Assembly: GCF_003352065.1 (NCBI RefSeq)
Contig: NZ_CP025803.1
Span: forward strand, 620,001 to 684,000
From: Sulfitobacter sp. SK011
GTDB taxonomy: Bacteria > Pseudomonadota > Alphaproteobacteria > Rhodobacterales > Rhodobacteraceae
Length of the DNA: 64,000 nt
Reading direction: 5' to 3'
Each line of letters starts with the position of its first letter. Position 1 is the stretch's first letter. The notes below the pieces were generated by a model that searched no databases, was not told the DNA's origin, and saw nothing but the letters and a program-made list of their open reading frames with translations. This document shows positions 8,966-27,765 of the stretch, one piece after another. The translations under genes were made by a program, and so were the position numbers.

Positions 8966-10801
8966 TCACAATCTCCGCCGCTTTACAGTCGCCGATGGAG
9001 CAGCAGCCACCAGATCGCTCAATTCATCGTCCTCTACTTCCAAGATGCGTTCGACCTCTGCCATCGCGTCTTCGGTTTCGATGTAATAGGCCCGCGCCGC
9101 GCCCAGAAGATCGCGCATGGCGCTGTAGGCGTAATTTGAATCGTTCAGGAATGAAGTTGCCATCTTAGCGTCGATCTTTCGGGCGCGGATTAGCCTGTCG
9201 ATCTTGCTGTTGGTTTCCTGTTCGTCCTTTTCGACCTGAATGCGTTCCTGATCCAGCCAAAGGCTTGATCGGTGTTCTGGGTCCGCCAGCTCAAGCTTGC
9301 GGATTTCCACGAGGATGCGGGCGATCTCTGTACGCAAGTCATTGTAGAGGTCCGTGATCACACCTTGCTTGCGCACCGTGTAATGGGTGGCGTTGCGCCG
9401 CAGGTGTTTGACCGCTTTCACGGCCCTGACGATACGCCCGGCAACATCTCGCATGGTGTAAATGTCTTGCATGACATCCTCGGGCATGTCCTTGGCCCCG
9501 ACCCGTGTCGCAAATTCGATGATCGCGGAATAAAGTGTCTTGACCCGTTTTTCATAGCGTTCACCGATATCGAATTCAAAGGATGCACGGCTGGCCGCGA
9601 CAGTTGCAGCGATATCGTTGGTTTCAAACAAAGCGCTTCGGTGCAGGTTGAGACCATGGGTGATCAATTCGATTGCATTGTCATAAAGGTGCTGAACTTC
9701 CCGGCGCATCGCTGTCCGAAAAGTTTGCGGAAACTCGTCTACCGCTTCGTTAAGATATTTCGGCTGGCTTAGGTCTTCCTTTGGTTGTGCAATGGCGAAT
9801 TCAAGGAATGCGATCAACTGATGAATGAGTGGAAGGATCAAAGCGACGCCCAGCACATTAAAGATTGAGTGGAACACGGCCAATTTCAGCGCGTAATCGG
9901 TGTCTGGAATACCGACGCCTGCACTTATGTAATCTACCGCCAAACGAATTTGGCTGATGAAAATCAGCGCCACGCCTGCAGTGACAAGGTTGAAGATAAG
10001 ATGTGCCAGCGCCAGCCGTTTACCCTGAAAATTCGCGGTAAAAGCGCCAATGATCGCGGTGACGGTGGTGCCGATGTTGGCACCGATTGCCAGCGCGATT
10101 GCGTTTTCATAGCTGATCTGCCCGGCGGCCAGTGCTGTGATGATCAGCACCATCGTGGCATGGCTTGACTGCATGACAACGGTCGCCGTGGCCCCCACAA
10201 GCGTATATACGACAAGCCCAAGCAGCCCGGTCAACGCAAAACGGGTCAGATCGAACTGGTCTTTGAAGGCCTCAAAGCCCTCCTTCATGTGGTGAATGCC
10301 CAGGAACAAAAAGCCAAGCCCCGCCAGAACATAGCCGGCACCGCGCAGGTATTTCGATTTTTGAAACACCAAAACGATCGCAATCGCCAGCATCGGCAAG
10401 GCATAGGCCGAGATGTTGACCTTCATCCCGAAACCGGCAACCAGCCAGGCTCCGGTCGTTGTTCCGATATTGGCACCGAATATGATGCCGACCCCTGCCA
10501 AAAGTGAGATCAGACCCGCACTGAGGAACGAGATCGTGATCACCGAGACCAGAGAGCTTGATTGCATGATCGTTGTAGACACAACGCCAAAGCCCACAGA
10601 TTTTGCGATCGACCCGGTTGCTTTCTCCAGCGCACGTTCAAGAAATCCGCCACTGAAAAGCTTAAACCCGTCTTCAAGCATCAACATGCCGAAAAGAAAG
10701 ATGGCCACGCCTGCGGCAATCTCCTGAAAGTCGGAACTGGCCCAAAACCCCAGGGTAAGCACCAACAGGATGACAGGCAAAAGCAGTCTTTTGAACATCA
10801 C
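8966..10801 (-). CDS. Na+/phosphate cotransporter with C-terminal PhoU-like domain (NptA/YjbB type)
   Basis: A 611-aa inner-membrane protein that moves phosphate with sodium. The N-terminal ~350 residues contain the two inverted PNaS repeats, each with the Gln-Ser-Ser motif (TIMQSSSLVSVITISFLSAG and VVMQSSHATMVLIITALAAG) and a GANIGTT loop (FGANIGTTTGAW, IGANIGTTVTAI). Residues ~375-600 are helical and charged, like the PhoU domain that occurs fused to such transporters. The gene follows the PiT gene by 10 bp, forming an operon of two phosphate carriers. Phosphate efflux or uptake are both possible for this family. No PhoB box was recognised upstream of the operon. Confidence 0.9.
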   Translation of the reverse strand: MMFKRLLLPVILLVLTLGFWASSDFQEIAAGVAIFLFGMLMLEDGFKLFSGGFLERALEKATGSIAKSVGFGVVSTTIMQSSSLVSVITISFLSAGLISLLAGVGIIFGANIGTTTGAWLVAGFGMKVNISAYALPMLAIAIVLVFQKSKYLRGAGYVLAGLGFLFLGIHHMKEGFEAFKDQFDLTRFALTGLLGLVVYTLVGATATVVMQSSHATMVLIITALAAGQISYENAIALAIGANIGTTVTAIIGAFTANFQGKRLALAHLIFNLVTAGVALIFISQIRLAVDYISAGVGIPDTDYALKLAVFHSIFNVLGVALILPLIHQLIAFLEFAIAQPKEDLSQPKYLNEAVDEFPQTFRTAMRREVQHLYDNAIELITHGLNLHRSALFETNDIAATVAASRASFEFDIGERYEKRVKTLYSAIIEFATRVGAKDMPEDVMQDIYTMRDVAGRIVRAVKAVKHLRRNATHYTVRKQGVITDLYNDLRTEIARILVEIRKLELADPEHRSSLWLDQERIQVEKDEQETNSKIDRLIRARKIDAKMATSFLNDSNYAYSAMRDLLGAARAYYIETEDAMAEVERILEVEDDELSDLVAAAPSATVKRRRL

Positions 10802-10811
10802 CTGTGACCCC

Positions 10812-12386
10812 CTACGGCAACATCATCCCGCGTAAGACGAAATAGAACATGGCGGCCAGAACCGCCGACACCGGAACAGTGATGATCCATGCCGACACGA
10901 TCTTGAACAGCGATGAGCGCTTGACCAGTTGCCGTTTCAATGCCTTTTGCAGTTCCTTTCTCTGAGCGGCATCAATGACGGCCTCCGACCCCATTCTCTG
11001 AAGTTCCTTCAGAATGCGCTGTTTGTCTTCGGGTGGTGCGTTCTGAAAATCCATCAGCACCTTTTCGGCCTGCTCAAAGTTTGGCTCGCCTTTGTGCTGA
11101 GCCAGAACATCTTCGACGACCCTACCCAGCCGCAACTCAAGGAACTCGCGCAGGAAGCCAACCCCGAACACCGCCCCAAGTGCGACGTGGGTCGAGCTGA
11201 CCGGCAATTTGAGGTGGCTCGCAATGATCACGGTGATCGCGGCCGACAGCGCAATACAAAAGGCGCGACTGCGGTCGAGCTCGGTAATTTCCGAACCGAC
11301 AGTGCGGATCAGCTTGGGCCCGAACAGCGCCAGACCCACCGAGATGCCCATCGCGCCGATAACCATGACCCAAAGCGGGATCGCGACTTTTGACGCGCCG
11401 CCCTCACCGGCGGTTAGGGCATCGACAATACCGGCGAGAGGACCAACAGCGTTGGCGACATCATTGGCACCATGCGCAAAGCTGAGCAGGGCCGCTGAGA
11501 TGATCAGCGGGATAGTGAAAAGCTGGTTCACCCCTTCGCGGTTGTTTTCCAGATTTGGAGCCACATTGTTAATCAGCGGACGAACGATGACGATGGCAAG
11601 CAGACCGGCAACCAGACCGATCAAAATAGCATTGGTGAAGTCAATCTTGACGAGTTTCGCGATACCTTTCAGCGCAATGTATGTGGCAAACGCCCATGTC
11701 ATGATACCGATCATGAACGGCACGACTTTGCGCGCCGATTCCACAGGCTCGGACTTGAAAAAAATTGTCCGCTTTAGAAAATACAAGAACAACGCGGCAA
11801 TGATACCGCCGGTGACAGGCGAAATGACCCAGCTTGCCGCAATTTTTGCCATCGCGTCCCAGTTTACAATATCCCATCCAGCCGCCGCGATGCCTGCACC
11901 CATGACACCGCCCACGATTGAGTGCGTTGTGGACACCGGCGCGCCAAGCCATGTGGCGGCGTTAAGCCAGATTGCCGCCCCGGTCAGGGCACCCATCATA
12001 ACCCAGACAAAGACTTGCGGGTCGGCAACATCGGCCGGATTGATAATGCCCTTCTTGACTGTACTGACCACATCGCCGCCGGCAATGATTGCCCCCGCTG
12101 CTTCGAAAATCGCAGCGATGATGATCGCCCCGGTCAATGTCAGCGCAAAAGAACCAACCGCGGGCCCGACATTGTTGGCAACGTCGTTGGCCCCAATGTT
12201 GATGGCCATATAGGCACCGATTACTGCGGCAGCGACCAGCAAATACGATTGTTCAACATGGGCAAATTTCGATCCCGCATAGACCATCACGCCAACGACA
12301 AACAATATCGCGGTGCCCAAACGCCCCACTTCTGTACGGCTTAAATCAGTCGCACTTTCGATCTTTAAATAGTCCTTGATCTTCAT
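10812..12386 (-). CDS. PiT-family inorganic phosphate transporter
   Basis: A 524-aa membrane protein carrying the duplicated PiT signature: GANDVANNVGPAVGS near residue 65 and GANDVANAVGPLAGI near residue 305. Further family hallmarks are LGAPVSTTHSIVGGVMGAG and LKLPVSSTHVALGAVFGVG. About ten to twelve hydrophobic segments are visible, with a charged cytoplasmic stretch (~410-490). PiT proteins carry metal-phosphate with H+ or Na+. It is the first gene of the phosphate operon (PiT, Na/Pi, coiled-coil). The 219-bp gap upstream, shared with the end of the protease operon, should hold its promoter. Confidence 0.93.
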   Translation of the reverse strand: MKIKDYLKIESATDLSRTEVGRLGTAILFVVGVMVYAGSKFAHVEQSYLLVAAAVIGAYMAINIGANDVANNVGPAVGSFALTLTGAIIIAAIFEAAGAIIAGGDVVSTVKKGIINPADVADPQVFVWVMMGALTGAAIWLNAATWLGAPVSTTHSIVGGVMGAGIAAAGWDIVNWDAMAKIAASWVISPVTGGIIAALFLYFLKRTIFFKSEPVESARKVVPFMIGIMTWAFATYIALKGIAKLVKIDFTNAILIGLVAGLLAIVIVRPLINNVAPNLENNREGVNQLFTIPLIISAALLSFAHGANDVANAVGPLAGIVDALTAGEGGASKVAIPLWVMVIGAMGISVGLALFGPKLIRTVGSEITELDRSRAFCIALSAAITVIIASHLKLPVSSTHVALGAVFGVGFLREFLELRLGRVVEDVLAQHKGEPNFEQAEKVLMDFQNAPPEDKQRILKELQRMGSEAVIDAAQRKELQKALKRQLVKRSSLFKIVSAWIITVPVSAVLAAMFYFVLRGMMLP

Positions 12387-12605
12387 TGATTACCCCCCCG
12401 GTATCTGCAGTCCGCGCAAAACAACCCAGCACGCTCAATGATCGTGCGGGCGGATCACGCTGTTGAACTAATCAGATCACGGTCAGAAAAAGCGCGCCAT
12501 GAGATGGATCAATTTCAGCGGCGGTAAATCGACTGGAAGCTCAAAAAAGAAGGAGGTTCGGTGTGTTCCCTCTGGTGCTGGCAGAGCCGCACTGGAGTAT
12601 ATCAC

Positions 12606-13739
12606 TTAATCAGCGGGCAGGGCTGTGGCATCCACTGGCTGGCAGCAGCCTTTCCACCACGCACCGATCTGATCTGCATGGGTGCTGCGGTTTTCGGACC
12701 AGATACCGTCGGTGTCATCCATGAAACCGAAATGATGCACCCCGACAAGCACCCCATCGGCATTGAAAACCGGCGACCCCGACGACCCACCTGCGGTATC
12801 GCAGGTATGGGTAAAGTCGCTGCCTGTCGCGCGCCCGTCCACGCCCGTCTGCACTGCGGCACAGTTGATGAAGGAAACCTGTTTTGGCTGTGACCCAGGG
12901 TGCTGAATGATAAAAAGCGGGCCGTCAGGGTCTGGAATGTCAGTTGTGATATCGACCGGTACATACTCAGGCCCGACGGGGCGGTTCAGCCGGATCACCG
13001 ACACGTCCAGGTCAAATGTGCTGCGTGTATCGTCATATTCGTCACAGCGCAGTTGCGGCCCCATGACAAGACGGTTCTGCGGATCGAATTCATAGCCGAA
13101 TACGGCGGTCATGCTCCGGCAGGTCTCGGCGCTGTTGATGCAGTGTTCGTTCGTCGCCAGCAGATCGGGTTCGATCAGAAATCCGGTGCAGGTGCGGGCA
13201 AAACCGCCGTCGATGAACGACAGGAATGCGACGGGGGCGGCCAGCGCACGAATGGCCTCGGGGACTTCCTGCGCGTTGATTGGCAGGATCTCATTTTCGC
13301 CCCAGGTAGAATAGAGCGACCCTTTGGCGCTTTGCACTGCGAGGTTTTCAATGATCAGCGCCGCCTCCTGCGGCACGCTCTGAGAAACCAGCGCCAGCCG
13401 CACCCGGCCAAGCGGCATCAGATTGGTCCAGTATCCCTCAGGCCCGATTGTGGATAGAGGAATGTCAAAGCTCTGGTCAAGTGCAGATACAAGGTGGACA
13501 AAAGCGGCGGGGTCAAACCCCTCCCCCTCGATCCGCAAGAGCAGGCGGATATAGTCCGCACCGGGTTGGCTGATCTCACCAGTCCACAGCACCGGCGGTT
13601 GGCCTGTCATGCGATCTGGCCCCACGCGGATGTCGCTGCCGCGCACCTTACCGTCAACATGGGCTTCCATGACCGGCGCTTGTTGTGCTGCCAATGGTGC
13701 CGCGAGCGCAAAACAGATGAGGATCAACAGAAGTTTCAT
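12606..13739 (-). CDS. Exported trypsin-like (V8/S1-type) serine protease
   Basis: A 377-aa protein with a signal peptide ending near Ala-Ala-Gln (residues 1-20). Residues ~25-165 form an extra domain that I do not recognise. The catalytic domain has His199 (LLATNEHCINS), Asp243 or Asp245 (TFDLDVSVIRL) and Ser320 (TAGGSSGSPVFN), the glutamyl-endopeptidase-like V8 pattern. Several cysteines could form disulfides, consistent with export. It is the last gene of the five-gene operon and overlaps the subtilisin gene by 4 bp (ATGA), so the two proteases are translationally coupled. The target is unknown; processing of another operon product or of host or environmental protein is possible. Confidence 0.88.
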   Translation of the reverse strand: MKLLLILICFALAAPLAAQQAPVMEAHVDGKVRGSDIRVGPDRMTGQPPVLWTGEISQPGADYIRLLLRIEGEGFDPAAFVHLVSALDQSFDIPLSTIGPEGYWTNLMPLGRVRLALVSQSVPQEAALIIENLAVQSAKGSLYSTWGENEILPINAQEVPEAIRALAAPVAFLSFIDGGFARTCTGFLIEPDLLATNEHCINSAETCRSMTAVFGYEFDPQNRLVMGPQLRCDEYDDTRSTFDLDVSVIRLNRPVGPEYVPVDITTDIPDPDGPLFIIQHPGSQPKQVSFINCAAVQTGVDGRATGSDFTHTCDTAGGSSGSPVFNADGVLVGVHHFGFMDDTDGIWSENRSTHADQIGAWWKGCCQPVDATALPAD

Positions 13740-15955
13740 TCGTCGAACAACGGCGACGTGTAATCTTTGATGTCGGCAAACCGGAATTCCACAATCTCAA
13801 ACCCGTCCGCGACGCTGGTTTGTACTTTCACTGGAGCTGACGCTGTGGTCACATTGCACGAAGGATACCTTTCCAGTGCCCCATAACGGTCACCCAGATC
13901 ACCGCCGATATGTCTGAAAATGATGTGCCGATTGCGGGCTTCGTTGAAGACCAGCCGCCGGACATTCCACCACTTCTGAAACTTCTGGTTCTCATGTGGC
14001 GTGCGACAGGAGAATTCGTCTGGGGCCTGCTTGACCTGTCCGACGATTCTGCGGCCATCGAAAAGCTCGAACTGGGCGTCACCAAGATGCATCGACCTGC
14101 CGATATTCAGCCGCCCGGCACTGACGTCACCGCTCAACTCCCCAAAAAAGTCAGCGGTATAGATCAGCCGATCCTTGACGATCTTGGGGGCCAACTGCGC
14201 GCCGCCCTGAGCGTCCCGATAGATAAATTCCCCGGCAGAAAAGATAAGTGAGGCGGCGGCGGCAACTTGTGGGGCTGCAATCGACGTGCCCGATTTATGC
14301 GCGAAACGGTTGTTGGAAACTGTGGACAGGACGTTTTGCGCAATTGCGCCTACATCGAATTCTGGATTGGTATTGGTCGCCGCCGTATCGGTTTGCCAAG
14401 GGCGCGGATCAGCGAGATCAGCGTTCAGCCCGACGACCGTGATAACATTGGGCAACCCGTTCAGGCAGGCGGGCAAGATACGGCAGCTTTCATCGTCCAT
14501 CGCCTGGCCTTCATTGCCGGCCGCCGCAACAAACAACATCCGGCTACCTTGCGCGGCCAAGGCGGCTTCGACCTCATCGAAATTGCCCCAAATTTGCAGG
14601 ATACCAAAGCTCATGTTTGCAACGCGGGTCCCTTCGGGAATATCCTGCTGCAACTGGTTTACCAGATTTTCGATCTGGGTTTCTGCCACAGCATTCTTGT
14701 CGAATTCCAAAAACCGCAACTGCGCCGCAGGATTGAGACCGATCATGCCCTTGCCATTTTCCTGCGATGCGATCAGCCCACCAACCGATGCCGCGTGATC
14801 ACTGTCGCTCAGCGCCAGTTCGTCGATCTTGGCACAGTCCACACTGGGTATGGCCGCTGTCGTGGTGTCATTGGAGGCTTCAAGAACATCTGCTGTAAAC
14901 TCTTCAACCGGGGCAACCAGTTCGGTCCCGTCTGTTGTCGATACATTTGGCCAGTCGCAATGACCTGACAATAACCGGCTGTCGATCACCACAACACCTA
15001 TGGGGCGCTTATATTCATCTGGCATATCCCCAGACCCAGCAAACGGATGGTTTATCAGCTTGAAAAGATCAATCTGTTGGTCAAAGTATGGCTCATCTTC
15101 GACCGCGTACTTGGACACGGACCCAACAGGGCGCAGATTTTTCTGCATGGCATCCAGCGCCAGATCATTGGGCGACTCGGTCGTGATGAGCTGGTTCCAT
15201 TCTGCTGAGCGCTCCGTGACGCTCACAAATTCGCGTTCCGTCTTGCTGCCGGGTTGCGCCATGCCGAGGTCTGCCAGTACTTTGCTGAAGCTGGACTTGC
15301 CGTCTGCTTTGAGTGCAACCGTTGTTGCCAACCGAAGCTGTGGAACCGTAACTTTGATCGTGCCCGTGGGCCGCTTGATCGTCGTGGGGTTGAAACGTTT
15401 CACGAGGTCTTCGCAGCTTGCTTTCCAGGCGGAACACTCCACCCCAGCCGGTACCACATAATCCTCAGCGCGCCAGTCCGCCGGCACTTCGATGCGTGAC
15501 AGGACCGTCACGCTTTCGAACAGGTAATCCGGGATCAGGATTGTCGTGCCTGCCCGGGTCGCCCAACGCCCTCGGCTGATGGTAAACCCACCAATATGAG
15601 CGGCAACGTCCGATATCGTCTTTTCCGATACGGCTTTGCGGGTTCGCGAACAGACATCTGGGTTCAGATCACACAAGAGCGCGTCCAGCGCCTCGGGAAA
15701 GAACGATCCCATGAACACGCCCTCTTCGCGAAGCAGAATCTCTACAAAGGGTGATTTTGCCGTGGTCGCCTCGCGGACTGTCAGATTGCCTGAGTTGTAG
15801 AGCACGACATAAAGCGTGCTCAGTTCAATCGCCAATTCTGCGTCTGACTGGCTGGCAGAGCGCCACTCCAGCTCTGCAACCGGCACTGCACTTTGGGCCC
15901 ACGCTGGCCCCACACCGCACAGCAGCAGTGCAATAACTCGGGCAAACACCTTCAT
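13736..15955 (-). CDS. Exported subtilisin-like (S8) serine protease with large N-terminal region
   Basis: A 739-aa protein starting at ATG 15955, chosen for its perfect AAGGAGG and for the signal peptide that follows (LIALLLCG-type core, cleavage near AWAQ). Residues ~22-310 are not recognised. The S8 triad is complete: Asp325 (GVVVIDSR), His387 (DSDHAASVGGLIAS) and Ser558 (KSGTSIAAPQVAAA), with the oxyanion Asn481 in AAAGNEG. The ~110 residues after the catalytic domain contain several cysteines. It lies 28 bp after the metalloprotease stop and overlaps the trypsin-like gene. The long N-terminal region may be a propeptide or a binding domain; this is inference. Confidence 0.88.
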   Translation of the reverse strand: MKVFARVIALLLCGVGPAWAQSAVPVAELEWRSASQSDAELAIELSTLYVVLYNSGNLTVREATTAKSPFVEILLREEGVFMGSFFPEALDALLCDLNPDVCSRTRKAVSEKTISDVAAHIGGFTISRGRWATRAGTTILIPDYLFESVTVLSRIEVPADWRAEDYVVPAGVECSAWKASCEDLVKRFNPTTIKRPTGTIKVTVPQLRLATTVALKADGKSSFSKVLADLGMAQPGSKTEREFVSVTERSAEWNQLITTESPNDLALDAMQKNLRPVGSVSKYAVEDEPYFDQQIDLFKLINHPFAGSGDMPDEYKRPIGVVVIDSRLLSGHCDWPNVSTTDGTELVAPVEEFTADVLEASNDTTTAAIPSVDCAKIDELALSDSDHAASVGGLIASQENGKGMIGLNPAAQLRFLEFDKNAVAETQIENLVNQLQQDIPEGTRVANMSFGILQIWGNFDEVEAALAAQGSRMLFVAAAGNEGQAMDDESCRILPACLNGLPNVITVVGLNADLADPRPWQTDTAATNTNPEFDVGAIAQNVLSTVSNNRFAHKSGTSIAAPQVAAAASLIFSAGEFIYRDAQGGAQLAPKIVKDRLIYTADFFGELSGDVSAGRLNIGRSMHLGDAQFELFDGRRIVGQVKQAPDEFSCRTPHENQKFQKWWNVRRLVFNEARNRHIIFRHIGGDLGDRYGALERYPSCNVTTASAPVKVQTSVADGFEIVEFRFADIKDYTSPLFDE

Positions 15956-15983
15956 GGTTATTCCTCCTTGTTGGCTTCGCAGG

Positions 15984-17228
15984 TCATGGACCCGTGTGGG
16001 TGACGGTGATAGCGAAACGGCCCGCGTCATACCCGTGGACAGCGACAAATGCAGTGCTCTGCCCTGCCGGCACGTCGACAGCGCAGGTTTCTTCTGCGCC
16101 ATCGGAATACGGTCGACAGTCAAAGTTTGAGATCAGCGCCGGACCGCCAAATTTGACATAAAGATCAGGATCACCTGACGCAGGACCATCCCCCGTCATG
16201 ACGGCGCTAAAAGGGGTTCCGGGCGCGACAGGAAACTGGCCAATCAGGATGAAATCATCCTGGGCAACATCCATGGGCCCAAAGCTTTCTGTCATGGCCC
16301 CGCCACCGCTGCCATGCAGAGGCGTACAGACCGAGGTGTCGATGACAAACCCCGCCGCCGCACCGTAGATACAGGCGGCACCGTTCTTGTCGGTTTCGGT
16401 CAGGCGCAAAGTCCAGTCGCCCAATCCATTGCACTGCGGATAATGCATCACCGAAAAGGCATCATAGTCTGTCACCGGTCGCCAATCGGTATCCTCAAAA
16501 CAGGCCCCGGCGTCTGGACGGACATGTTCGTGCCTTGCACCGATGACGTGCCCCAGTTCATGCCGTAGGATCCCCCGCAGCGTCAGGTTGCCGTTCGGAT
16601 CGAGGCCAAAGGACGAAGGGTCAATTACGACGCTACGGTCATCGCGTGGGTCGTTTGGGAAAAACGCGGCGGCAAGAAACTGACCGCCGGCATTGACCGG
16701 ACGCACATCAAAAAGCACCCCGTCGTTGGATGTGTCACAGATTGAATCTTCGCCGGGATGATAGATAAAATCCACATCCGCCACGGCCTCCCACGCTGCT
16801 GTTGCACCTTGCATGTCCGCGACCACCGCAGCATGACGCCCACCAAATGCCGTACTGATGCAATAGCTCAGCTGACGTTGCTGAGTGGCACCCCAAAGCT
16901 GGTCAAGGCCGCCGTTGGTGATGATCGTAAACTCGGGGACATTGCCGCTGGGGACTGGTGGTGTGTTTGCGATGTTCTGCTCATAAAACTCGCGCAACAG
17001 CTTCTCGTTGCGTATCGGCGTGTCGCCATTGACGTAGTATTTTCCTGTCTCGGGCAAGAAAGGCGTCTGGTCGCGAAACTCTTCGAAGGTCAGTTGTTTT
17101 GCTTGCGTGCGGGCCGCCTCGGCCGCGGATTTCAACGCCTCTTGGGCCTCTTCCGGTGTGGCCTGCTGTGCCGAGGCTAGATGCGGCGTGAGTGCCAGTA
17201 AGGCTGCAATGAGTATTCTTGTGGTCAT
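15984..17228 (-). CDS. Exported zinc metalloprotease with C-terminal PPC domain
   Basis: A 414-aa protein with a signal peptide (residues 1-20, ending ASAQQ). The metzincin zinc motif HExxHxxGxxH is complete and followed by Glu as in astacins (HELGHVIGARHEH, His223, Glu224, His227, His233), and the Met-turn is SVMHYPQ (Met261). Residues ~325-412 read as a bacterial pre-peptidase C-terminal domain (SGDPDLYVKFGGPA, HGYDAGRFAITVTHTGP), which is often removed from secreted proteases. Residues 25-95 are a charged pro-region. It sits third in the operon, between the amidohydrolase and the subtilisin gene. Astacin-like (M12A) is the best assignment. Confidence 0.88.
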   Translation of the reverse strand: MTTRILIAALLALTPHLASAQQATPEEAQEALKSAAEAARTQAKQLTFEEFRDQTPFLPETGKYYVNGDTPIRNEKLLREFYEQNIANTPPVPSGNVPEFTIITNGGLDQLWGATQQRQLSYCISTAFGGRHAAVVADMQGATAAWEAVADVDFIYHPGEDSICDTSNDGVLFDVRPVNAGGQFLAAAFFPNDPRDDRSVVIDPSSFGLDPNGNLTLRGILRHELGHVIGARHEHVRPDAGACFEDTDWRPVTDYDAFSVMHYPQCNGLGDWTLRLTETDKNGAACIYGAAAGFVIDTSVCTPLHGSGGGAMTESFGPMDVAQDDFILIGQFPVAPGTPFSAVMTGDGPASGDPDLYVKFGGPALISNFDCRPYSDGAEETCAVDVPAGQSTAFVAVHGYDAGRFAITVTHTGP

Positions 17229-17272
17229 CAGAAATCCCCTTGATGAATGTGGCGATCAAACTCTGGAAACGA

Positions 17273-18940
17273 TCACCCGCTGTTGAAAATGTCCTCAAAA
17301 ACCGGATGACCGGCAAAAAATTGTGAAAGCCGGGACTGTTGCGCGCCATCAGCGTCCAACCCCAGATAGCGCGCGGCATTGCCTCCCATGACGCTTTCTC
17401 GGGTGGCATCATCCAGTGCCAACTCGTCCAGCGCCTGTCGCACACCCGCAAGATACTGTGGATGGCTTGGCACCCGCCCGATCATTGACCAGTCCGACCC
17501 ATACATCATCCGGTCCAGCATTTTGGGCGTCCGCCCAAGCAACGTTGCGACCCGTTGCATCACCCGGTCCCTTGATGGAGACTCTGGATCAGCCGCGTCG
17601 GTCCAATAGCTTAGATCGAAAAAGAGGTTCGGATAGGTCTCCAGCATACCTGCGAGGGTTTCTTCCCAATCCACCCCTGTCGCCAATGCCCCGGCAGGTG
17701 CGCTCTCATCAAAGCCGCCAAAATGTGCGAGGTTCAGGCGCAGATTTTTCAGTCCGGGCTGGTCCAGCACGCCGCGCCATCCATCGGGGGAAGCAAACGC
17801 GCCAGTGTCCGGGCCAGCGGCAATGGAATTGTTGGCATGCGCCTTGATCGGCACGTCATTCGCCACACACCATTCATAAAGTTTGAACAGCTCCGCATCC
17901 AGTGCTGCGCCGCCCGCCTTGGGTTTGCGTGGTGCCCATGTGATGTCGATCCGGTCATTTCCGGACGGAACGAAACCCATCGGCGGATAGAGCTTCACGC
18001 CGGCGAACCCGAATTCGAGAACCGCCCGCTTGACGTGGCGCAATGTGTCGGCATTCGGATCATCTTCGGCTTCAAGGGCGGCCTTGAGCGGACAAAACGG
18101 TGCAAAGTTCAAGATCACAGCATCCGGATAACTCTTGGCAATCGCAGAAAACAGCGTGATCAGATCCTCTGTCGGAGTGACCGTTTCTTCGGTCAAAAAC
18201 CAGGCGCTGAATTCCACCAGTGAGGGCGAGAATATACGGATGCCTGAGGGCCCGCCGTAAAGCCGCCCCAACTCTGCGAGGATATCCACGCGCGGTCGCG
18301 TCAAAAGACCGGCCCAACGGATCGTTTGCATGAACGGTGAATAATGGACATAGCTGCGCGTTTCGCCTTGTGACAACGCGCCGGTATTGCCTTGCCTGAA
18401 AATTTCAGCGGCCAAGGTGCGCCCTTGATTTTCTGGGGTTTGAAGCGAGTTTCGCAAATTTGGCTGCCCCACCTCTGCGGCAATCCGGTCCAGCACCTGT
18501 TCCTCTTCGGTTCGTGTGGTGCGCAACCCGGCGGTCTGCTGACCCAGATTACGGCTGAACGCGGCCAGTCCTGCGGCCACGTTGCGTTCGTCGCGCTTCA
18601 GGACCTCTGGCTCTGGCGCAGATATGAAACCTTGGGTACCCAACGTCTCAAGTTCCTTTCCGGCGCGCGGTGTTCCTGACAACATGATGGCTTTGAGCAG
18701 TTTCAGAAAAGCTCCGGTGACGGGCGCGCTTTCGACCGGCTGGTGCGGGTCGCGTAATATAGTCTGCTGTAAAAAGCCCACCAGCGGCACATCCCGACCA
18801 TTAAAAATATGCGCGTGAATGTCGATCGCGGTACGGGAAACCTCAGGCTGGAAAAAGCTTTTGATCCGCCCGCAGCCCGGCAAAAGCGACAGCCCACCAA
18901 AGCCAAGGCCGCGTTGCAAAAGCCGTCTGCGGGTGATCAT
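17273..18940 (-). CDS. Amidohydrolase-superfamily protein with Tat/lipoprotein signal
   Basis: A 555-aa metal-dependent hydrolase. The N-terminus has twin arginines (TRRRLLQRG), a hydrophobic core and a lipobox-like LLPGC at residues 19-23, so it is probably exported and anchored in the membrane. The metal-binding His-x-His is in AIDIHAHIFNG (His42, His44). Further likely ligands are His in IKAHANN, His in NLAHFGG and Asp in YGSDWSMIG, which fits the amidohydrolase-2 (ACMSD-like) group. A long insertion (~55-250) is unusual for that group. It follows the peroxidase gene by 36 bp. Substrate unknown; an amide, ester or decarboxylation substrate made extracytoplasmically is possible. Confidence 0.82.
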   Translation of the reverse strand: MITRRRLLQRGLGFGGLSLLPGCGRIKSFFQPEVSRTAIDIHAHIFNGRDVPLVGFLQQTILRDPHQPVESAPVTGAFLKLLKAIMLSGTPRAGKELETLGTQGFISAPEPEVLKRDERNVAAGLAAFSRNLGQQTAGLRTTRTEEEQVLDRIAAEVGQPNLRNSLQTPENQGRTLAAEIFRQGNTGALSQGETRSYVHYSPFMQTIRWAGLLTRPRVDILAELGRLYGGPSGIRIFSPSLVEFSAWFLTEETVTPTEDLITLFSAIAKSYPDAVILNFAPFCPLKAALEAEDDPNADTLRHVKRAVLEFGFAGVKLYPPMGFVPSGNDRIDITWAPRKPKAGGAALDAELFKLYEWCVANDVPIKAHANNSIAAGPDTGAFASPDGWRGVLDQPGLKNLRLNLAHFGGFDESAPAGALATGVDWEETLAGMLETYPNLFFDLSYWTDAADPESPSRDRVMQRVATLLGRTPKMLDRMMYGSDWSMIGRVPSHPQYLAGVRQALDELALDDATRESVMGGNAARYLGLDADGAQQSRLSQFFAGHPVFEDIFNSG

Positions 18941-18976
18941 TATCGTCTCCCTCTCTTTCGAGTGCCTGCGGTTCCC

Positions 18977-20755
18977 TTACTCCATTACCAGCGCAAATTT
19001 CATCCATTTGGAAATGCTGTCGATGGGGGTGCCATCGGGTGCCTCCAATGGGCTGTCCTGCGGCGTGAAATCAAGCGAGAGCGCAGAATCCGGGTCCGCG
19101 AGCAGGATTGCGATGAACGTGCTTGCCACGATCCAGCTGCCCAGTTCGCCCAGATGGTCGCCGCCTGTCGCTTCGGCTTCGGCCAGACAATAGAACCACA
19201 ATGGCGTCCGCTCGAACAAGCGCGACTGCGACCCTTCCAGAAAGGCCTTTAGGTTGGGCTTTCCGTCCAGCAGGTCGGCGACATTTGCGACGGGATCGCT
19301 GGTCACCGCGCCAACGGATTTCAGATGCGCATGCAGCGCTTGCCCGGTTGGCAACCGCAGGCTTAACCCGCGCCGAAGATTGCGCCGCGCAAGATGCCGG
19401 AACAACGCTTTGATGTTGGGGTTGGGTTCGTCCTTGGCCTCGTTGTGCAAATCGCCCAATGGTGGTGCCAGCAGCGTATCGATTTTGCGGGCCGTCTTGG
19501 CAGGATGTCCATCGGCACTGTTGCCGTCGGCCTCTACGAACCTGGTCCAGTCAATGATCCAGTTTTCAGGCACCCGGGCACCGCCTCTGAAGCCACCGCC
19601 ACCGGTGAAGGTAAATATCTCGTCGAACGGCGCGGAGGGCAGGAACGCCCCGCCCGTCGAGCGGCCAAAGTTTTTGTTATAATCGTAGGCATCGCGTACC
19701 ATGGTGTGCCCGAACCTGAACGCCGCCACGGAAAATTCCAGCGCCATGGCGTTGCCCAAGGTTTTGGCACCGACCCTATCGGCATGGGCGGCACGGAATT
19801 CAAAGAAGTGCCGCGCTTTGGCCGCAAGAACGGCGTCGACCACCGCTGGGTCACAAACTTTCTTGAGATATCCGTCGACGATCAGCCATTGATAATGCAG
19901 CCGTGTAAGCGCCTGTGCTGCATGAAAGTCAGGCATCCAGCCGGTGTCGTTGGCCTCAAGAAAGTCTACCGCGCGATTGTGAAAGCGCAGAAAGCTCAGG
20001 TGGAACTGCGCGATGATGAGGTTCTCGTCGTTGCGCATGTCCCCGATGATGGCCCGCTGCGGCAAACCAGCTTCGAAGGCGGCAAAATCCGCCGGGGACA
20101 GGCTGTCGCGCAAGATATTCAGATAGGCGTCGCGTATTTCTGGCTGCACCTGCTGAAACCGGGGCAGATCACGGTGCGGGTCCAAGCCATCTGGCAATGG
20201 TCCTATCGCCTCTGCCGTGCCGACGCGCATCTTTTCAGGATGGGCCGGATGCCGCATGCCGGAGATGACCTTGACGACGTCCGGCGTGATGTCGACGCCC
20301 ACCGGCAAGCCGCCATAGACACTGTCCAGATCAAAGCGTGGCGTCCGTGCATTCTTGAGTTTGGTCTCAATTTCTGCGGCTGACATCAACGGCACTGCCG
20401 TATCGATCTTGGAAATATCCGTCTCGCGGTCCGTACGTGCCGTCAGCTCGTGGTCCAGAAACTGACCCCAATAGGTCAAGATCGGGGGGAGGGTCGAATC
20501 CGGTGTAACATGCAGATTGCCAGGATCTTCGTCGGGCACCATCAGGTTGCCCAACTCATCCAGTTCACCCAGAACATCGTCAGAAAGATAGTCGCCGGGA
20601 TTGCCGGATGGTGGAAACAGGTACCCGAAATCCGCCGCTTCATCGACGGCGACATCGCCTGTTGCGGGAACCAGTGCAGATGGCGCAGCCGCGGCTCTGG
20701 TCTTGGGTTTTGAAACGCGGTTAGAACCGCCATGCGATTGGAAAAATATGGACAT
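18977..20755 (-). CDS. Animal-type haem peroxidase (peroxinectin-like)
   Basis: A 592-aa peroxidase of the myeloperoxidase superfamily. The distal site WGQFLDHELT (Gln98, Asp101, His102) matches the animal-type motif, including the aspartate that can bind haem covalently and the calcium-site region. Arg241 and Glu244 (GDMRNDEN) fit the catalytic Arg and the second haem-linking acid, and the proximal His350 lies in FRFGHTMVRDAYDYN. ATG 20755 is preferred because GGAG stands 6 nt upstream; an ATG four codons earlier has no such site. No signal peptide is visible, so export, if any, would need another route. It is the first gene of the peroxidase-amidohydrolase-protease operon. Confidence 0.9.
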   Translation of the reverse strand: MSIFFQSHGGSNRVSKPKTRAAAAPSALVPATGDVAVDEAADFGYLFPPSGNPGDYLSDDVLGELDELGNLMVPDEDPGNLHVTPDSTLPPILTYWGQFLDHELTARTDRETDISKIDTAVPLMSAAEIETKLKNARTPRFDLDSVYGGLPVGVDITPDVVKVISGMRHPAHPEKMRVGTAEAIGPLPDGLDPHRDLPRFQQVQPEIRDAYLNILRDSLSPADFAAFEAGLPQRAIIGDMRNDENLIIAQFHLSFLRFHNRAVDFLEANDTGWMPDFHAAQALTRLHYQWLIVDGYLKKVCDPAVVDAVLAAKARHFFEFRAAHADRVGAKTLGNAMALEFSVAAFRFGHTMVRDAYDYNKNFGRSTGGAFLPSAPFDEIFTFTGGGGFRGGARVPENWIIDWTRFVEADGNSADGHPAKTARKIDTLLAPPLGDLHNEAKDEPNPNIKALFRHLARRNLRRGLSLRLPTGQALHAHLKSVGAVTSDPVANVADLLDGKPNLKAFLEGSQSRLFERTPLWFYCLAEAEATGGDHLGELGSWIVASTFIAILLADPDSALSLDFTPQDSPLEAPDGTPIDSISKWMKFALVME

Positions 20756-21030
20756 GAAATACTCCATCTATTTATTAAAATACTTACGATGTTAACCTAA
20801 CGGCAGCTTTCTATCTATGGTGGCATTCCGTACCCTGTCTAAACCGTCTGTATTTATTGGATTATTTCTGCCTTGCAGTTCTCGTTTCACGCGAAAATAC
20901 TGACTTATCGAGCAGGGCGTTCATGATTCGTTTTGTCAAAAGATCGAGTTTCTCGCAGCCACCAATCGTCTTGGCGTGACCTGCGTGAGGCGGCTTGCGA
21001 TAACATCGCCGGACCTTTTTTCAATGCCGA

Positions 21031-22212
21031 TCAGGACAGGAAATTGCGACAGGCTTTCGCCACCACCAACTCTTCGTTTGTGGGTATCACGAGGACCTTC
21101 ACCTTGGATGCCGCTGTGCTGATCAGGACCTCGTTGCGGGTGTTGGCGGCGTCGTCCAGCATGACATCAAGCCAGTCAAGCTGATCACAGATCTGTCTGC
21201 GGACAAGGGCCGAGTTTTCACCGATGCCCGCGGTAAATACCACGGCGTCCAAACCGCCAATCGAAGGCACAAGCCCCGCCAGACCGCTTGCGGCCCGATA
21301 GCAGTAAAGCGCGATAGCATCCTTTGCATGTGGATCGTCGCTGTTTTGCAGCACCTGCATGTCGTTGGTCAGTCCTGAGACACCCAAAAGCCCGGATTTC
21401 TTATAGAGCAGTTTCTCAATCTCTGCGGCTTGCATACCTTTGGATTGCATCAGGTATAACACCACGCCGGGATCAAGCGTGCCGCAGCGGCGGCCCATCA
21501 TCAACCCATCCAGAGCCGTAAAGCCCATGGTGGTTGCGTGGCTCTTGCGATCCTTCATCGCACACATGCTGGCCCCGTTGCCAAGATGGGCGACAATGAT
21601 CCGCCCATCCGCCTGTTTGCCAAGGTGCCTTGGCAGGACGCTGGCAATATGATCGTAGGACAGACCGTGAAATCCATAACGGATGATGCCCGCATCGGTA
21701 AGGGTGCGGGGCAGGGCAAAGCGCTTTGCCAGCCGCATCTGGTCACGGTGAAAGCCTGTATCAAAACAGGCAATCTGAGGCAGGTTGGGTTTCCAGTTCG
21801 CAACCGCGCGGATGGCCGCGATGTTGTGCGGCTGGTGCAGCGGGGCGAGCGGCGCGAGGGTTTCCAGCTTGTGCAACACCTCGTCGGAAATGCGTTCTGG
21901 TGCAGTGAAGTCCCGACCGCCGTGCACAACGCGGTGACCTACTGCGGCAAGCGACCCCTGACCATGGTGCGTTTCAAGCCATGGCAACAGACGTGCTATC
22001 ACCTGATCATGGTCGGCCGACACCTCGAGCGTTTCCAGCATTCCTTTATCAAGTAGCGCGCCGTTCTTGTCCCGCGCCGTGAAGATGGGGGCATTACCGA
22101 TCCCCGCGATCTTGCCGCAAATCACGGGTTCAGTGGAGACAGTATCGCCCTCGAATACCGCGAATTTAACGCTCGATGATCCAGCGTTGATCGTCAGTAG
22201 AACCCTGCTCAT
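21031..22212 (-). CDS. ackA: Acetate kinase
   Basis: A 393-aa enzyme that makes ATP and acetate from acetyl phosphate. The start is set at ATG 22212 so that the protein begins with the family hallmark LLTINAGSSSVKFAVFE. Also visible are HRVVHGGRDF, CFDTGFHRDQ (catalytic Asp), RRYGFHGLSYDH-like text (IIRYGFHGLSYDH), VAHLGNGASMCAM and FTAGIGENSALVR, covering all expected sites. The length is normal. It is divergent from carbamate kinase across an FNR-type site, so two substrate-level phosphorylation enzymes face each other. No phosphotransacetylase or phosphoketolase gene is in the window. Confidence 0.95.
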   Translation of the reverse strand: MSRVLLTINAGSSSVKFAVFEGDTVSTEPVICGKIAGIGNAPIFTARDKNGALLDKGMLETLEVSADHDQVIARLLPWLETHHGQGSLAAVGHRVVHGGRDFTAPERISDEVLHKLETLAPLAPLHQPHNIAAIRAVANWKPNLPQIACFDTGFHRDQMRLAKRFALPRTLTDAGIIRYGFHGLSYDHIASVLPRHLGKQADGRIIVAHLGNGASMCAMKDRKSHATTMGFTALDGLMMGRRCGTLDPGVVLYLMQSKGMQAAEIEKLLYKKSGLLGVSGLTNDMQVLQNSDDPHAKDAIALYCYRAASGLAGLVPSIGGLDAVVFTAGIGENSALVRRQICDQLDWLDVMLDDAANTRNEVLISTAASKVKVLVIPTNEELVVAKACRNFLS

Positions 22213-22385
22213 GCAGTGCAGCCAGCAAAAGGGCCCTGAACAGATACCCGCGCCATCACCGCTGAGGCCAGACACATCGCCCCACCAAAACAGAAAGTGG
22301 CAAAACTATTGGGAGACTGTCCGGAGGTCTGCGGGGACATCTGGACCAAAGAAGTCGCGTTACAAAGTAAAATGCCGCCCGCCAT
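22209..22385 (-). CDS. Possible small membrane protein coupled to ackA
   Basis: A 58-aa frame from ATG 22385 with GGAACGG about 8 nt upstream. Its stop overlaps the ackA start by 4 bp (ATGA), as in coupled genes. Two short hydrophobic stretches are seen (MAGGILLCNA and FATFCFGGAMCLASAVM). The start falls about 72 nt from the centre of the FNR-type site, which leaves room for a leader. The open frame extends further upstream to a TTG inside that site. No family is recognised, so it may be a leader that sets ackA translation, or chance. Confidence 0.4.
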   Translation of the reverse strand: MAGGILLCNATSLVQMSPQTSGQSPNSFATFCFGGAMCLASAVMARVSVQGPFAGCTA

Positions 22386-22595: not shown

Positions 22596-22712
22596 ATGCC
22601 AAAAGATTTGTCCATATCCATAGGACACACGGGCGTCTCAATCTCTTGTGGTCAGGCGCATGACCGGATGCACACAACAAAGGTGGTTCCTTTCGCCACT
22701 TCGGGGGCGTGA
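22596..22712 (+). CDS. Small ORF (38 aa) directly upstream of carbamate kinase
   Basis: ATG 22596 is preceded by AAAGGAGAAGG, one of the stronger ribosome-binding sites in the window. The frame ends with TGA at 22710-22712, a single base before the arcC ATG at 22714. This arrangement is expected for translational coupling or for a leader peptide. The peptide begins MPKDLSISIGH, has one Cys and several His residues, and no membrane segment. It is not recognised. It may be a genuine microprotein or a cis-acting leader of the carbamate kinase/N-ATPase operon. Confidence 0.55.
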   Translation: MPKDLSISIGHTGVSISCGQAHDRMHTTKVVPFATSGA

Positions 22713-22713
22713 G

Positions 22714-25425
<2,712 letters not shown>

Positions 25426-25435
<10 letters not shown>

Positions 25436-25719
25436 CACCGAAACCCGACAAAGCCACCGAAGAAATCGCCCGCCAGGCCAGGCGGATGAAATCGACGCGC
25501 GATCATCCGGGGCCAAGCCCACTGCGCGGCATCGGTACATTCGGCATGATCGGTTGGTCCGTCGCGGTGCCTACGGTTGGCGGCGCATTTCTCGGCCTTT
25601 GGCTGGATCGTGTGGCCCCACAGAGTTTTTCCTGGACCATCGCTTTGATCCTCGGCGGCGTCGTCCTGGGCGCGTTCATTGCCGCGGCATGGATCAACAA
25701 AGAAGGAGGCGAACGATGA
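25426..25719 (+). CDS. atpQ: N-ATPase accessory membrane protein AtpQ (AtpI-like)
   Basis: A 97-aa protein with a charged N-terminal 40 residues and two membrane helices (IGWSVAVPTVGGAFLGLWLD and WTIALILGGVVLGAFIAAAW). This is the AtpI/AtpQ layout; such proteins assist c-ring assembly. Its place after atpC and before atpR is specific to N-ATPase operons. It overlaps atpR by 4 bp. Confidence 0.88.
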
Positions 25720-26015
25720 TACACGTTGACTGGATGACTATGATACTTGGCCTTGCGATCGGCAGCGCAATGGGGGCGGTCTTTTTCATTGGGCTGGCTT
25801 TTGGGATGCGGTTTGCCCTAAGGACCCAAAACCCGATCAGAATTCTCGCATTCAGCGCAGCTTTGCGGATCTCAGGCTTGCTTGGGGTTGGTTTGGTCGT
25901 CGTGGGGCTGGGCGGGCTATGGGCCGCTCTTGGGTACGCAATCGCGTTCTTTTTCGCGCGTTTCATCGCGACGACCTTTGTAGGCACAGGCGCACCTGCC
26001 GGAGGCGCACCATGA
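25716..26015 (+). CDS. atpR: N-ATPase accessory membrane protein AtpR
   Basis: A 99-aa, very hydrophobic protein with three probable membrane helices (MILGLAIGSAMGAVFFIGLA, a middle segment around ILAFSAALRISGLLGVGLVV, and LWAALGYAIAFFFARFIATT). The two arginines in or near the middle helix fit AtpR, which is thought to contact the c ring. GGAGG precedes the ATG and the gene overlaps atpQ and atpB by 4 bp each. AtpR is found only in N-ATPase operons, which supports the operon type. Confidence 0.88.
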   Translation: MIHVDWMTMILGLAIGSAMGAVFFIGLAFGMRFALRTQNPIRILAFSAALRISGLLGVGLVVVGLGGLWAALGYAIAFFFARFIATTFVGTGAPAGGAP

Positions 26016-26707
26016 ATCTGTCGCCCGATCAAACGATCATGTTCGACGTATGGGGATATCCCATCAACGCGACCATCTTTTACACCTGGGTCGTGATGGC
26101 GCTGCTGACGGTCGCTTCAATGGTCATCACCCGCAGACTGCAGCCGGATGTGCCGCCGAACCGATGGCGCACGATGCTCGAAGTGATTGTGCAAGGCATA
26201 CAGGGACAGATTCAGGAAATCGCCCCCGGCCCGTCACGCTACCTTTTGTATTTCGCAGGGACGCTGTTTTTGTTCATCGCCGTTTCAAATCTGCTTTTGG
26301 TTATTCCGGGCTTTGACCCGCCCACATCATCCCTGTCGACGACGACAGCACTGGCGATTTCAGTTCTCATTGCGGTCCCGCTCTTTGGTGTGATCAGCCG
26401 AGGTCTAGGTGGGTATCTCAAGACCTATCTGGAACCGTCTTTCATCATGCTTCCCTTCAATATCATCGCAGAGTTTTCGCGTGGTATCTCACTTGCCATC
26501 CGGCTTTACGGGAACATCATGAGCGGTGCGGTGATTGCGGCGATCCTGCTTAGCGTGGCACCTTTCTTTTTCCCGGTGGTGATGGATGTGCTTGGCCTTC
26601 TGACCGGGATCATTCAGGCCTATATCTTCGCGATTTTAGCGACGGTCTACATCTCCAGCGCTACCGGTGCGCCGACCCCTCCCCAGCCCGAAAAGGACAA
26701 GCCATGA
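26012..26707 (+). CDS. atpB: N-ATPase subunit a
   Basis: A 231-aa membrane subunit forming the ion half-channels. Start ATG 26012 overlaps atpR by 4 bp. The conserved arginine helix reads SRGISLAIRLYGNIMSGAVI, and a final helix VFAI-type segment is ...IIQAYIFAILATVYISSA. Other features are PTSSLSTTTALAISVLIAVP and five or so hydrophobic segments. It works with the c ring encoded by the next gene. Confidence 0.93.
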   Translation: MNLSPDQTIMFDVWGYPINATIFYTWVVMALLTVASMVITRRLQPDVPPNRWRTMLEVIVQGIQGQIQEIAPGPSRYLLYFAGTLFLFIAVSNLLLVIPGFDPPTSSLSTTTALAISVLIAVPLFGVISRGLGGYLKTYLEPSFIMLPFNIIAEFSRGISLAIRLYGNIMSGAVIAAILLSVAPFFFPVVMDVLGLLTGIIQAYIFAILATVYISSATGAPTPPQPEKDKP

Positions 26708-26991
26708 CAGACCTTGGAATCATCGCTGCCATCTCCATTTTCACAGCGGGACTGACCGTATCATTTGGTGCGATCGGTCCGGCACTCGGTGAAGGACGCG
26801 CCGCCGCGACGGCATTGAGCGCGATTGCCCAACAGCCCGACGCCGCCCCGAACATCTCGCGGACCCTGTTTGTGAGCCTCGCCATGATCGAGTCGACGGC
26901 GATCTATTGTTTTGTCGTTGCCATGATCTTGATATTTGCAAACCCATTCTGGAACACGGCTGTTGCTGCGGCAAAAGCGGCAGGTGGCTGA
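26704..26991 (+). CDS. atpE: N-ATPase subunit c, sodium-binding type
   Basis: A 95-aa hairpin of two helices. Helix 2 reads MIESTAIYCF with Glu63, Ser64, Thr65 and Tyr68, the ligand set of Na+-binding c subunits (Ilyobacter-type E-S-T-x-x-Y). Helix 1 carries a second acid, Glu30 in PALGEGRAA, where Ilyobacter has Gln; the double acid is a known N-ATPase trait. Sodium coupling is therefore predicted from the residues themselves. It overlaps atpB by 4 bp. Confidence 0.94.
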   Translation: MTDLGIIAAISIFTAGLTVSFGAIGPALGEGRAAATALSAIAQQPDAAPNISRTLFVSLAMIESTAIYCFVVAMILIFANPFWNTAVAAAKAAGG

Positions 26992-26994
26992 ACC

Positions 26995-27765
26995 ATGTCC
27001 ATCGACTGGATCACTGTTGCTGCACAGATCGCCAACTTTCTGGTTCTGGTCTGGCTCTTGAAGCGGTTCCTCTACCGCCCGATTCTGGACGGTATTGACG
27101 CAAGAGAGGCTGAGATCACCAATAGAATGCAAGAGGCTGTCGAGGCCAAGGATCAGGCAGCGGCTATCGAGGCAGAGTACCGCGAAAAGAAGCGGGCCCT
27201 GCACGTTGCCCAGTCCGAGATGTCTGAGACAATCCGCAAAACCGCCGAGGAAAAGCGCGATGCACTGTTGGCCGAAGCGCACCAGCGGATGGAACAGGAA
27301 CATGTCAGCTTGCAGGCACATTTGGACGAAGAAGCCCGTCAATATGCCACCAAGATGCATCATGCCGGGGCCGGTGCGTTACTTTCGCTGACGCGCAAGG
27401 CGCTCATTGATCTGGCGGATGAAACGCTGGAAGAGCGGATGGCGCGGCACCTTGTTCAGCAAATCAAACCGATGGCCGCAGAACTGCAACATGCGGCCGG
27501 GGAGGCGATTGTTGCTGTGATGACAAGTCATGAGCCGTTGCCGAAATCGGCGCAAGTTGGTTTTGCTACCGAACTGAATGCTGTATTCCCTGATATTTCA
27601 GTGGAATTCGACACGGATGCGGATCAAGCGCCGGGTCTGGTGCTTCGCATGGGTGGGGCGCAGCTGGCTTGGACCGTGGACTCCTACATTGATGAACTTG
27701 AATCGCTGATTGGCAAGCGGCTTGCCAGCGGTGCCGAGTTGAAAGTGCAGTCTCGTGAGCAGTGA
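26995..27765 (+). CDS. atpF: N-ATPase subunit b, extended form
   Basis: A 256-aa peripheral-stalk subunit. One N-terminal membrane helix ([20 protein letters not shown]) is followed by a long charged coiled coil (~35-165). The C-terminal ~90 residues ([48 protein letters not shown]) resemble the C-terminal part of delta subunits. It is clearly longer than a usual b subunit (~160 aa), and no separate atpH exists in the operon, so this end may do delta's job. It overlaps atpA by 11 bp. Confidence 0.9.

Follow-up and report, generated by a model that had tools for sequence, protein, structure and literature searches.

Among the described systems, the closest to the locus analysed here is System 3 of Kaur et al. 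(2020, PMC7159879), in which multiple peptidases are combined with a NucA endonuclease in alphaproteobacteria and for which a conflict role by way of a proteolytic cascade was proposed; the words 'peroxidase' and 'amidohydrolase' do not occur in the main text of that paper. In the sections of the survey by Zamocky et al. (2015, PMC4420034) considered here, the roles of the short bacterial peroxicins are called completely unknown and no connection with proteases is made. MopA-type proteins are animal-type haem peroxidases that oxidise Mn(II) in marine alphaproteobacteria, the Erythrobacter protein having 2138 amino acids with haemolysin-type and PERCAL calcium-binding motifs (PMC6247904). Here we describe five genes, named A to E, at positions 12606-20755 of a stretch of 64,000 nucleotides from Sulfitobacter sp. 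SK011 (NZ_CP025803.1, positions 620,001 to 684,000; hereafter the window), which join a predicted animal-type haem peroxidase (A) and an amidohydrolase (B) to three exported proteases (C, D and E). We tentatively read the set as a horizontally moving oxidase-plus-protease cassette, probably a set of conflict-type effectors, and regard this reading as possible, though somewhat short of probable.

All five genes lie on the minus strand. Gene A (18977-20755) starts with ATG at 20755, just downstream of a GGAG motif, and encodes 592 amino acids. It is followed by B (17273-18940; 555 amino acids), an amidohydrolase (PF04909) with a twin-arginine/lipobox N-terminus, by C (15984-17228; 414 amino acids), an exported metzincin metalloprotease with a C-terminal PPC domain, by D (13736-15955; 739 amino acids), an exported S8 subtilisin-like protease, and by E (12606-13739; 377 amino acids), an exported trypsin/V8-like (Trypsin_2) protease with a conserved N-terminal domain. 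The junctions measure 36 (A-B), 44 (B-C), 28 (C-D) and -4 bp (D-E, a 4-bp overlap); the gaps were taken from the end of A at 18977 and are thus independent of the choice of its start. The description of five co-directional genes with small gaps and one overlap, given in the initial annotation, was therefore confirmed, and motif inspection likewise found the catalytic residues intact in all five proteins. Spacing and conservation suggest that A to E probably form one operon.

Like System 3, in which some members have an S8 peptidase besides the trypsin-like one, the set brings trypsin-like (E, Trypsin_2) and S8 (D) peptidases together in a probable alphaproteobacterial operon, and relatives of A in two other genomes (G141 and G023) adjoin genes of the trypsin-NucA(-S8) type. 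Unlike System 3, A to E include no NucA (Endonuclease_NS), which forms the core of that system and is present beside an A relative at locus L036, and Pfam finds neither EAD1 nor a STAND/Death-like component, which a subset of System 3 has; in the window set, exported proteases, a metzincin among them, stand instead with an amidohydrolase and a haem peroxidase. Because the NucA core is missing, the window cassette was not classed as a member of System 3, though it is similar in combining several peptidases. No paper on an operon of a peroxidase and several proteases was found in the open-access literature, which is weak evidence of absence. The statement of the initial annotation that no system of this makeup has been described thus holds for the exact makeup and fails for the wider class, to which System 3 belongs; the link of a peroxidase to such protease cassettes seems to be undescribed.

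The complete set A-B-C-D-E recurs in the same order in a congener (G721), with spacings of 34, 45, 26 and -4 bp, so that the arrangement is more than chance. Identities between the window and G721 are 86, 79, 78, 65 and 71% for A to E, respectively. Synonymous sites are near saturation (proportion of synonymous differences, pS, 0.65-0.77), and the ratio of non-synonymous to synonymous substitution rates (dN/dS) is 0.03-0.14 for A, B, D and E, with 0.04 for A alone; these four genes are under strong purifying selection. For C the proportion of non-synonymous differences (pN) is 0.135 and the synonymous sites are over-saturated, hence no dN/dS is given. Reading of the G721 sequence also revealed a transposase-like open reading frame (ORF) after its copy of the set.

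In other Rhodobacteraceae the set is found in part. An uncultured Tropicimonas metagenome-assembled genome (G007, contig of L031) carries A and B side by side (85 and 77% identity) on a contig that ends within B, and C and D were not found in the rest of that genome. The A-B spacing is stable, with 36 bp in the window genome (G000), 34 in G721 and 34 in G007. B-C-D-E in order and without A were found in three further genera, on a single contig in both G010 and G232 and split between two contigs in G246; none of the three genomes has a match to A. Of the five Rhodobacteraceae genomes other than that of the window that have B, three are without A. On the two contigs of G246 (L100 and L101) C and the D N-terminus are present in overlapping copies that differ slightly; the genome may hold two cassettes, or the assembly may mix strains. 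At least four members in order thus occur in other genera (BCDE in G010, G232 and G246) next to ABCDE in G721, the degree of conservation that the initial annotation had named as support for a system. G055, of the same genus as the window, is without A, B, C and D, and A at 69% identity or more occurs in 3 of 62 species of the genus; relatives of A were found in 52 of 298 genomes of the family, sampled at about one genome per genus.

Related protease sets are carried by Rhizobium plasmids. Plasmid pRL10 of Rhizobium ruizarguesonis has genes for a metzincin, then an S8 and then a trypsin-like protease, the order C-D-E, as has pRlX4 of R. johnstonii, where D is split. Plasmids of Rhizobium sp. 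WL3 and R. leguminosarum RCAM1365 carry an S8 and a trypsin-like protease as well, here preceded by a LuxR-type regulator and then a RoxA-like di-haem protein. In profile comparisons, E of the window matched its Rhizobium counterpart over nearly the full length (2.6e-29) and D matched in the catalytic domain (8.6e-11). The RoxA-like sets (L190 and L194, annotated records) resemble the window in that a haem enzyme gene precedes an S8-trypsin pair that is exported and homologous to D-E; they differ in that their haem protein is unrelated to A, B and C are absent, and a LuxR-type regulator is present. No paper on these RoxA-like - S8 - trypsin sets was found, and the annotation of the Rhizobium C-D-E and D-E loci examined shows no A-like gene. 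From the comparison of Rhizobium with Rhodobacteraceae it follows that D-E is the stable core and that the upstream partners vary; two unrelated haem enzyme types, A and the RoxA-like protein, appear among these partners. Furthermore, the flanks of the G721 copy are wholly different from those of the window, and the downstream flank of the window cassette differs from those in G721, G010 and G232. Because of the patchy distribution, the changing flanks and the occurrence on plasmids, the cassette has probably been transferred horizontally.

Most relatives of A occur without B to E, and their own neighbours are informative. Among the closest relatives of A, the one at L036 adjoins a trypsin-NucA-S8 fusion, that at L037 an S8 gene and an alpha/beta-hydrolase-trypsin protein, that at L038 a trypsin, a RoxA-like gene and a protein related to the L036 fusion, that at L039 a homologue of the L037 protein together with a weak S8 match, and that at L142 an S8 gene. 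More distant relatives adjoin papain-like proteases, GDSL-trypsin, GDSL-caspase, CCP_MauG and PAP2 proteins and SARP-like regulators. The rhizobial copies of A at L109 and L110 have no recognised proteases beside them, and insertion-sequence-like ORFs lie nearby.

For a quantitative comparison, Pfam families were tallied in two genes on each side of 20 A relatives (72 neighbours) and in 75 control ORFs, nearly all from genomes with an A relative. S8 was found 7 times, Trypsin_2 6 times and PAP2 10 times among the neighbours, and each fewer than twice among the controls, where the count was set at 1 per family as an upper bound. One-sided Fisher tests gave p = 0.027 for S8, 0.052 for Trypsin_2, 0.004 for PAP2 and 0.004 for S8 or Trypsin_2 jointly; these values are modest and the loci share descent, so that they count as support and not as proof. 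The papain-like gene of L041, skipped by the gene caller, was added to the foreground by hand, which introduces a slight foreground bias. Narrow hidden Markov models (HMMs) of D and E matched near A relatives at 5 of 31 loci and at none of 40 control loci (p = 0.013), all matches being trypsin; as these models missed other S8 types, the Pfam tally was used instead. That haem oxidising enzymes and these proteases are linked in function is backed by the S8, trypsin and C1 neighbours of the A clade, and also by the non-homologous RoxA-like protein ahead of D-E on Rhizobium plasmids. Judged from these gene neighbourhoods, a haem oxidase with several proteases appears to be a recurrent theme, in which the D-E pair would be the invariant core and the peroxidase an interchangeable partner.

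At nine loci (L033, L036, L037, L039, L040, L044, L046, L144 and L145) PAP2-superfamily proteins stand beside peroxidase relatives, together with an S8-like gene and a SARP-like regulator. Several of these PAP2 proteins carry low-complexity repeats (GNAGNAG, GRSGRSG, GTQGGTQ, GVGGVG). Loci of PAP2 with peroxidase thus appear to be a second recurrent type of peroxidase cluster. Distant peroxidases at L049, L051 and L052 lie near YcaO cyclodehydratase genes; taken with L146 and L147, these loci place the peroxidase near YcaO or cyclase-like regulator genes, and at L146 and L147 an ORF with MPSLLxT adjoins it.

By profile and motif, A is assigned to the peroxidase-cyclooxygenase ('animal-type') haem peroxidase superfamily, and peroxidase activity is predicted. 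The An_peroxidase family (PF03098) scores 51.5 bits against a cut-off of 25 (Pfam, E 7.9e-14), and the A profile retrieves lactoperoxidase and myeloperoxidase (LPO/MPO), the former at 1.3e-11. The motifs GQFLDH (distal), GDMRNDEN (Arg/Glu), RFGH (proximal His) and ARRNLRR are present, and the catalytic and haem residues (distal Gln/His, Arg, proximal His, haem-linking Asp/Glu) are invariant or nearly so in 15 homologues; Asn takes the place of the Met for the MPO-type sulfonium link. A resembles the short bacterial peroxicins (family 5) in its single domain, distal Q/H, Arg-x-x-Glu, proximal His and the Asp and Glu positions for covalent haem, a likeness drawn from motifs and not from phylogeny. 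No signal peptide was found on inspection of the N-termini of A and of all sampled A relatives. The N-terminus is of the twin-arginine and lipobox type in B and is a hydrophobic, Sec-type segment in C, D and E; A shows neither. The cysteine counts are 8, 11 and 9 for C, D and E and 2 for A; cysteine-rich proteases and a cysteine-poor peroxidase would fit separate compartments.

B matches Amidohydro_2 (Pfam, 4.4e-23) with the metal-ligand motifs DIHAH, IKAHAN and YGSD. Its N-terminus shows RRR and the lipobox LLPGC, and the twin arginine and lipobox-type cysteine are found in five orthologues. A PDB search with B gave no match, and single-sequence AlphaFold models were unusable, with a mean predicted local distance difference test (pLDDT) score of 37 for B and 33 for D. 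Rhizobial plasmids carry full-length homologues of B at 27-28% identity. In Rhizobium etli p42a (L193) and Rhizobium sp. BT04 (L192) such a distant homologue (27%) directly precedes an E2/Mov34/DUF2604 ubiquitin-like operon; both operons include TIR genes, and a caspase gene is found only in L193.

C matches Peptidase_M10 (Pfam, 7.7e-6), with Matrixin at 26.3 bits above its cut-off of 24 and Astacin at 19.9 (6e-4) below its cut-off of 22.5. The zinc motif HELGHVIGARHE (HExxHxxGxxHE) and the Met-turn SVMHY are present, and the zinc ligands are invariant in an alignment of 5 homologues. The PPC domain (6.5e-5) falls just under the cut-off; it is above it in the G232 orthologue, and the region matches 2luw at 4e-9. 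Such domains are typical of secreted proteases. C was originally called an astacin-like metalloprotease with a PPC domain; the metalloprotease and the PPC domain are retained, a clear astacin assignment is not, and the profile scores place C as a predicted metzincin between the matrixin and astacin families. A class-wide search of 385 genomes with the C alignment returned, beyond the window, weak partial matches only, which indicates that C is specific to this gene set. On a Corynebacterium plasmid a relative of C stands as a metalloprotease of its own, without D-E.

D matches Peptidase_S8 (Pfam, 8.1e-22), with the catalytic motifs VVIDS, DHAA, AAGNEG and GTSIAAP, those of the triad among them; its N-terminal region of about 330 amino acids has no assigned fold. 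Orthologues of D occur in 4 other genomes at 35-64% identity. In the G010 homologue (L098) the position of the catalytic Asp is Glu (VFESR), so that the activity of this copy may differ. E matches Trypsin_2 (Pfam, 5.5e-20) with the motifs TNEHC, DLDVSV and GGSSGSP, and its nearest solved structures are glutamyl endopeptidases of the V8 type.

Proteases of the S8, V8-like and metzincin types are commonly synthesised as precursors, and animal-type peroxidases form hypohalous acids or radicals from peroxide. In the mechanism that we propose, the stable core would be the exported serine-protease pair of D (S8) and E (V8-like), often with the metzincin C ahead of it; in Rhodobacteraceae a surface lipoprotein hydrolase, B, would precede C-D-E, and a haem oxidising enzyme would be an optional partner, the leaderless A here and a RoxA-like di-haem protein in Rhizobium. 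C, D and E would be exported as precursors and would activate one another outside the cytoplasm, or be activated by a signal, and then cut envelope or extracellular proteins. A would be made in the cytoplasm, be released probably by lysis or by an unrecognised route, and turn peroxide into reactive halogen or radical species. The combined outcome may be the destruction of a competitor, of an invader or of the infected cell itself. Two observations favour a conflict role over a nutritional one: the distribution is patchy and mobile, and nucleases, lipases, a caspase and multi-peptidase proteins like those of the conflict systems of PMC7159879 accompany the relatives of A and those of the trypsin.

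Several observations weigh against this proposal. Exported proteases with a lipoprotein hydrolase suit nutrient acquisition equally well. A is leaderless while B to E are exported, so that A and C-E may never meet. The cassette encodes no sensor NTPase, EAD/adaptor domain, nuclease or immunity gene, and no source of peroxide. PADLOC models of anti-phage defence systems gave weak generic protease matches to A-E, the best being 'subtilase' at 4.7e-8, and the N-terminal regions of D from Rhodobacteraceae and Rhizobium showed no profile match. On the side of transcription, no promoter or terminator signals around the cassette exceeded the expectation from shuffled sequence. A single extracytoplasmic cascade including the peroxidase, as first suggested for this locus, found no support: A and its sampled relatives are without signal peptides, A has far fewer cysteines than the three proteases, and it is dispensable, being missing from most other B-carrying Rhodobacteraceae genomes and not annotated in the Rhizobium loci.

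Should the set act as a weapon or a means of cell suicide, bacteria would have a parallel to the way in which phagocytes kill with oxidants and proteases. A much bolder generalisation, which we consider distinctly improbable, would make animal-type haem peroxidases standing effectors of mobile multi-protease conflict cassettes, in which a proteolytic cascade of unrelated clans sets off an oxidative burst or runs alongside it; such cassettes would be a counterpart, evolved independently, of the phagocyte pairing of myeloperoxidase and proteases. The short bacterial animal-type peroxidases gain a testable role from their repeated company of S8, trypsin, papain-like, caspase, nuclease and lipase proteins, and a cassette joining a peroxidase with three exported proteases adds oxidative chemistry to the described alphaproteobacterial multi-peptidase systems.

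The strongest competitor of the conflict reading, rather unlikely in our view, is a secreted set for nutritional degradation, in which B to E would break down material outside the cell, such as particles rich in protein, the matrix of biofilms or a polymer, and the haem enzyme would open the polymer oxidatively, as RoxA opens rubber. The export signals of B to E, the resemblance of E to secreted glutamyl endopeptidases, the PPC domain of C and the replacement of the peroxidase by RoxA-like proteins in Rhizobium all fit this view, but A has no export signal, the cassette has no genes for transporters, peptide uptake or polymer catabolism, and the A relatives adjoin caspase, nuclease and SARP-type genes and not catabolic ones. 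It is quite doubtful that BCDE is the real system and A a passenger that landed beside it: although three genera have BCDE without A, and A is leaderless and stands without B-E in most relatives, the kept A-B spacing, the low dN/dS of A, its repeated proximity to S8 and trypsin genes of other types and the similar place of the RoxA-like protein ahead of D-E in Rhizobium point the other way. Still less probable is a unit for envelope quality control or stress, with proteases clearing oxidised or misfolded envelope proteins and A removing peroxide; a haem peroxidase next to exported proteases, the lipoprotein B at the membrane and LuxR/SARP-like regulators beside relatives would suit it, but a very patchy, mobile distribution is unlike housekeeping, and A is missing where BCDE is retained. 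A role of the cassette in forming Mn oxides, with A as a Mn(II)-oxidising peroxidase of the MopA type, is scarcely credible and was rejected for the wrong architecture of A, since, despite the shared superfamily and the Mn(II) oxidation by such enzymes in marine alphaproteobacteria, MopA is long with calcium-binding motifs and A is a single domain of 592 amino acids in which Pfam finds An_peroxidase only and no such repeats. Chance neighbourhood was rejected as well, because the gene order is conserved in several genera, and so was a set found in this strain only, because of G721, G010, G232 and G246.

The intergenic region upstream of A (20756-21030, no strand), presumably the operon promoter region, is the synteny breakpoint relative to G721 and is AT-rich, with a GC content of 0.45 at 20768-21030. 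The region downstream of E (12387-12605, no strand), the presumed end of the cassette, precedes a Pit-like phosphate transporter gene. This Pit-like permease and a Na/Pi cotransporter-family gene stand in tandem at 8966-12386, directly downstream of the cassette. At 22648-30203 a carbamate kinase gene is followed by a second-type ATP synthase set resembling an N-ATPase operon (two ATP-synt_ab proteins, subunit a and gamma), divergent from an acetate kinase gene at 21031-22221. Finally, at 53095-59093, a polysaccharide deacetylase-glycosyltransferase fusion of 1142 amino acids and a DUF3131 protein that follows it with a 4-bp overlap may form an operon for exopolysaccharide synthesis.

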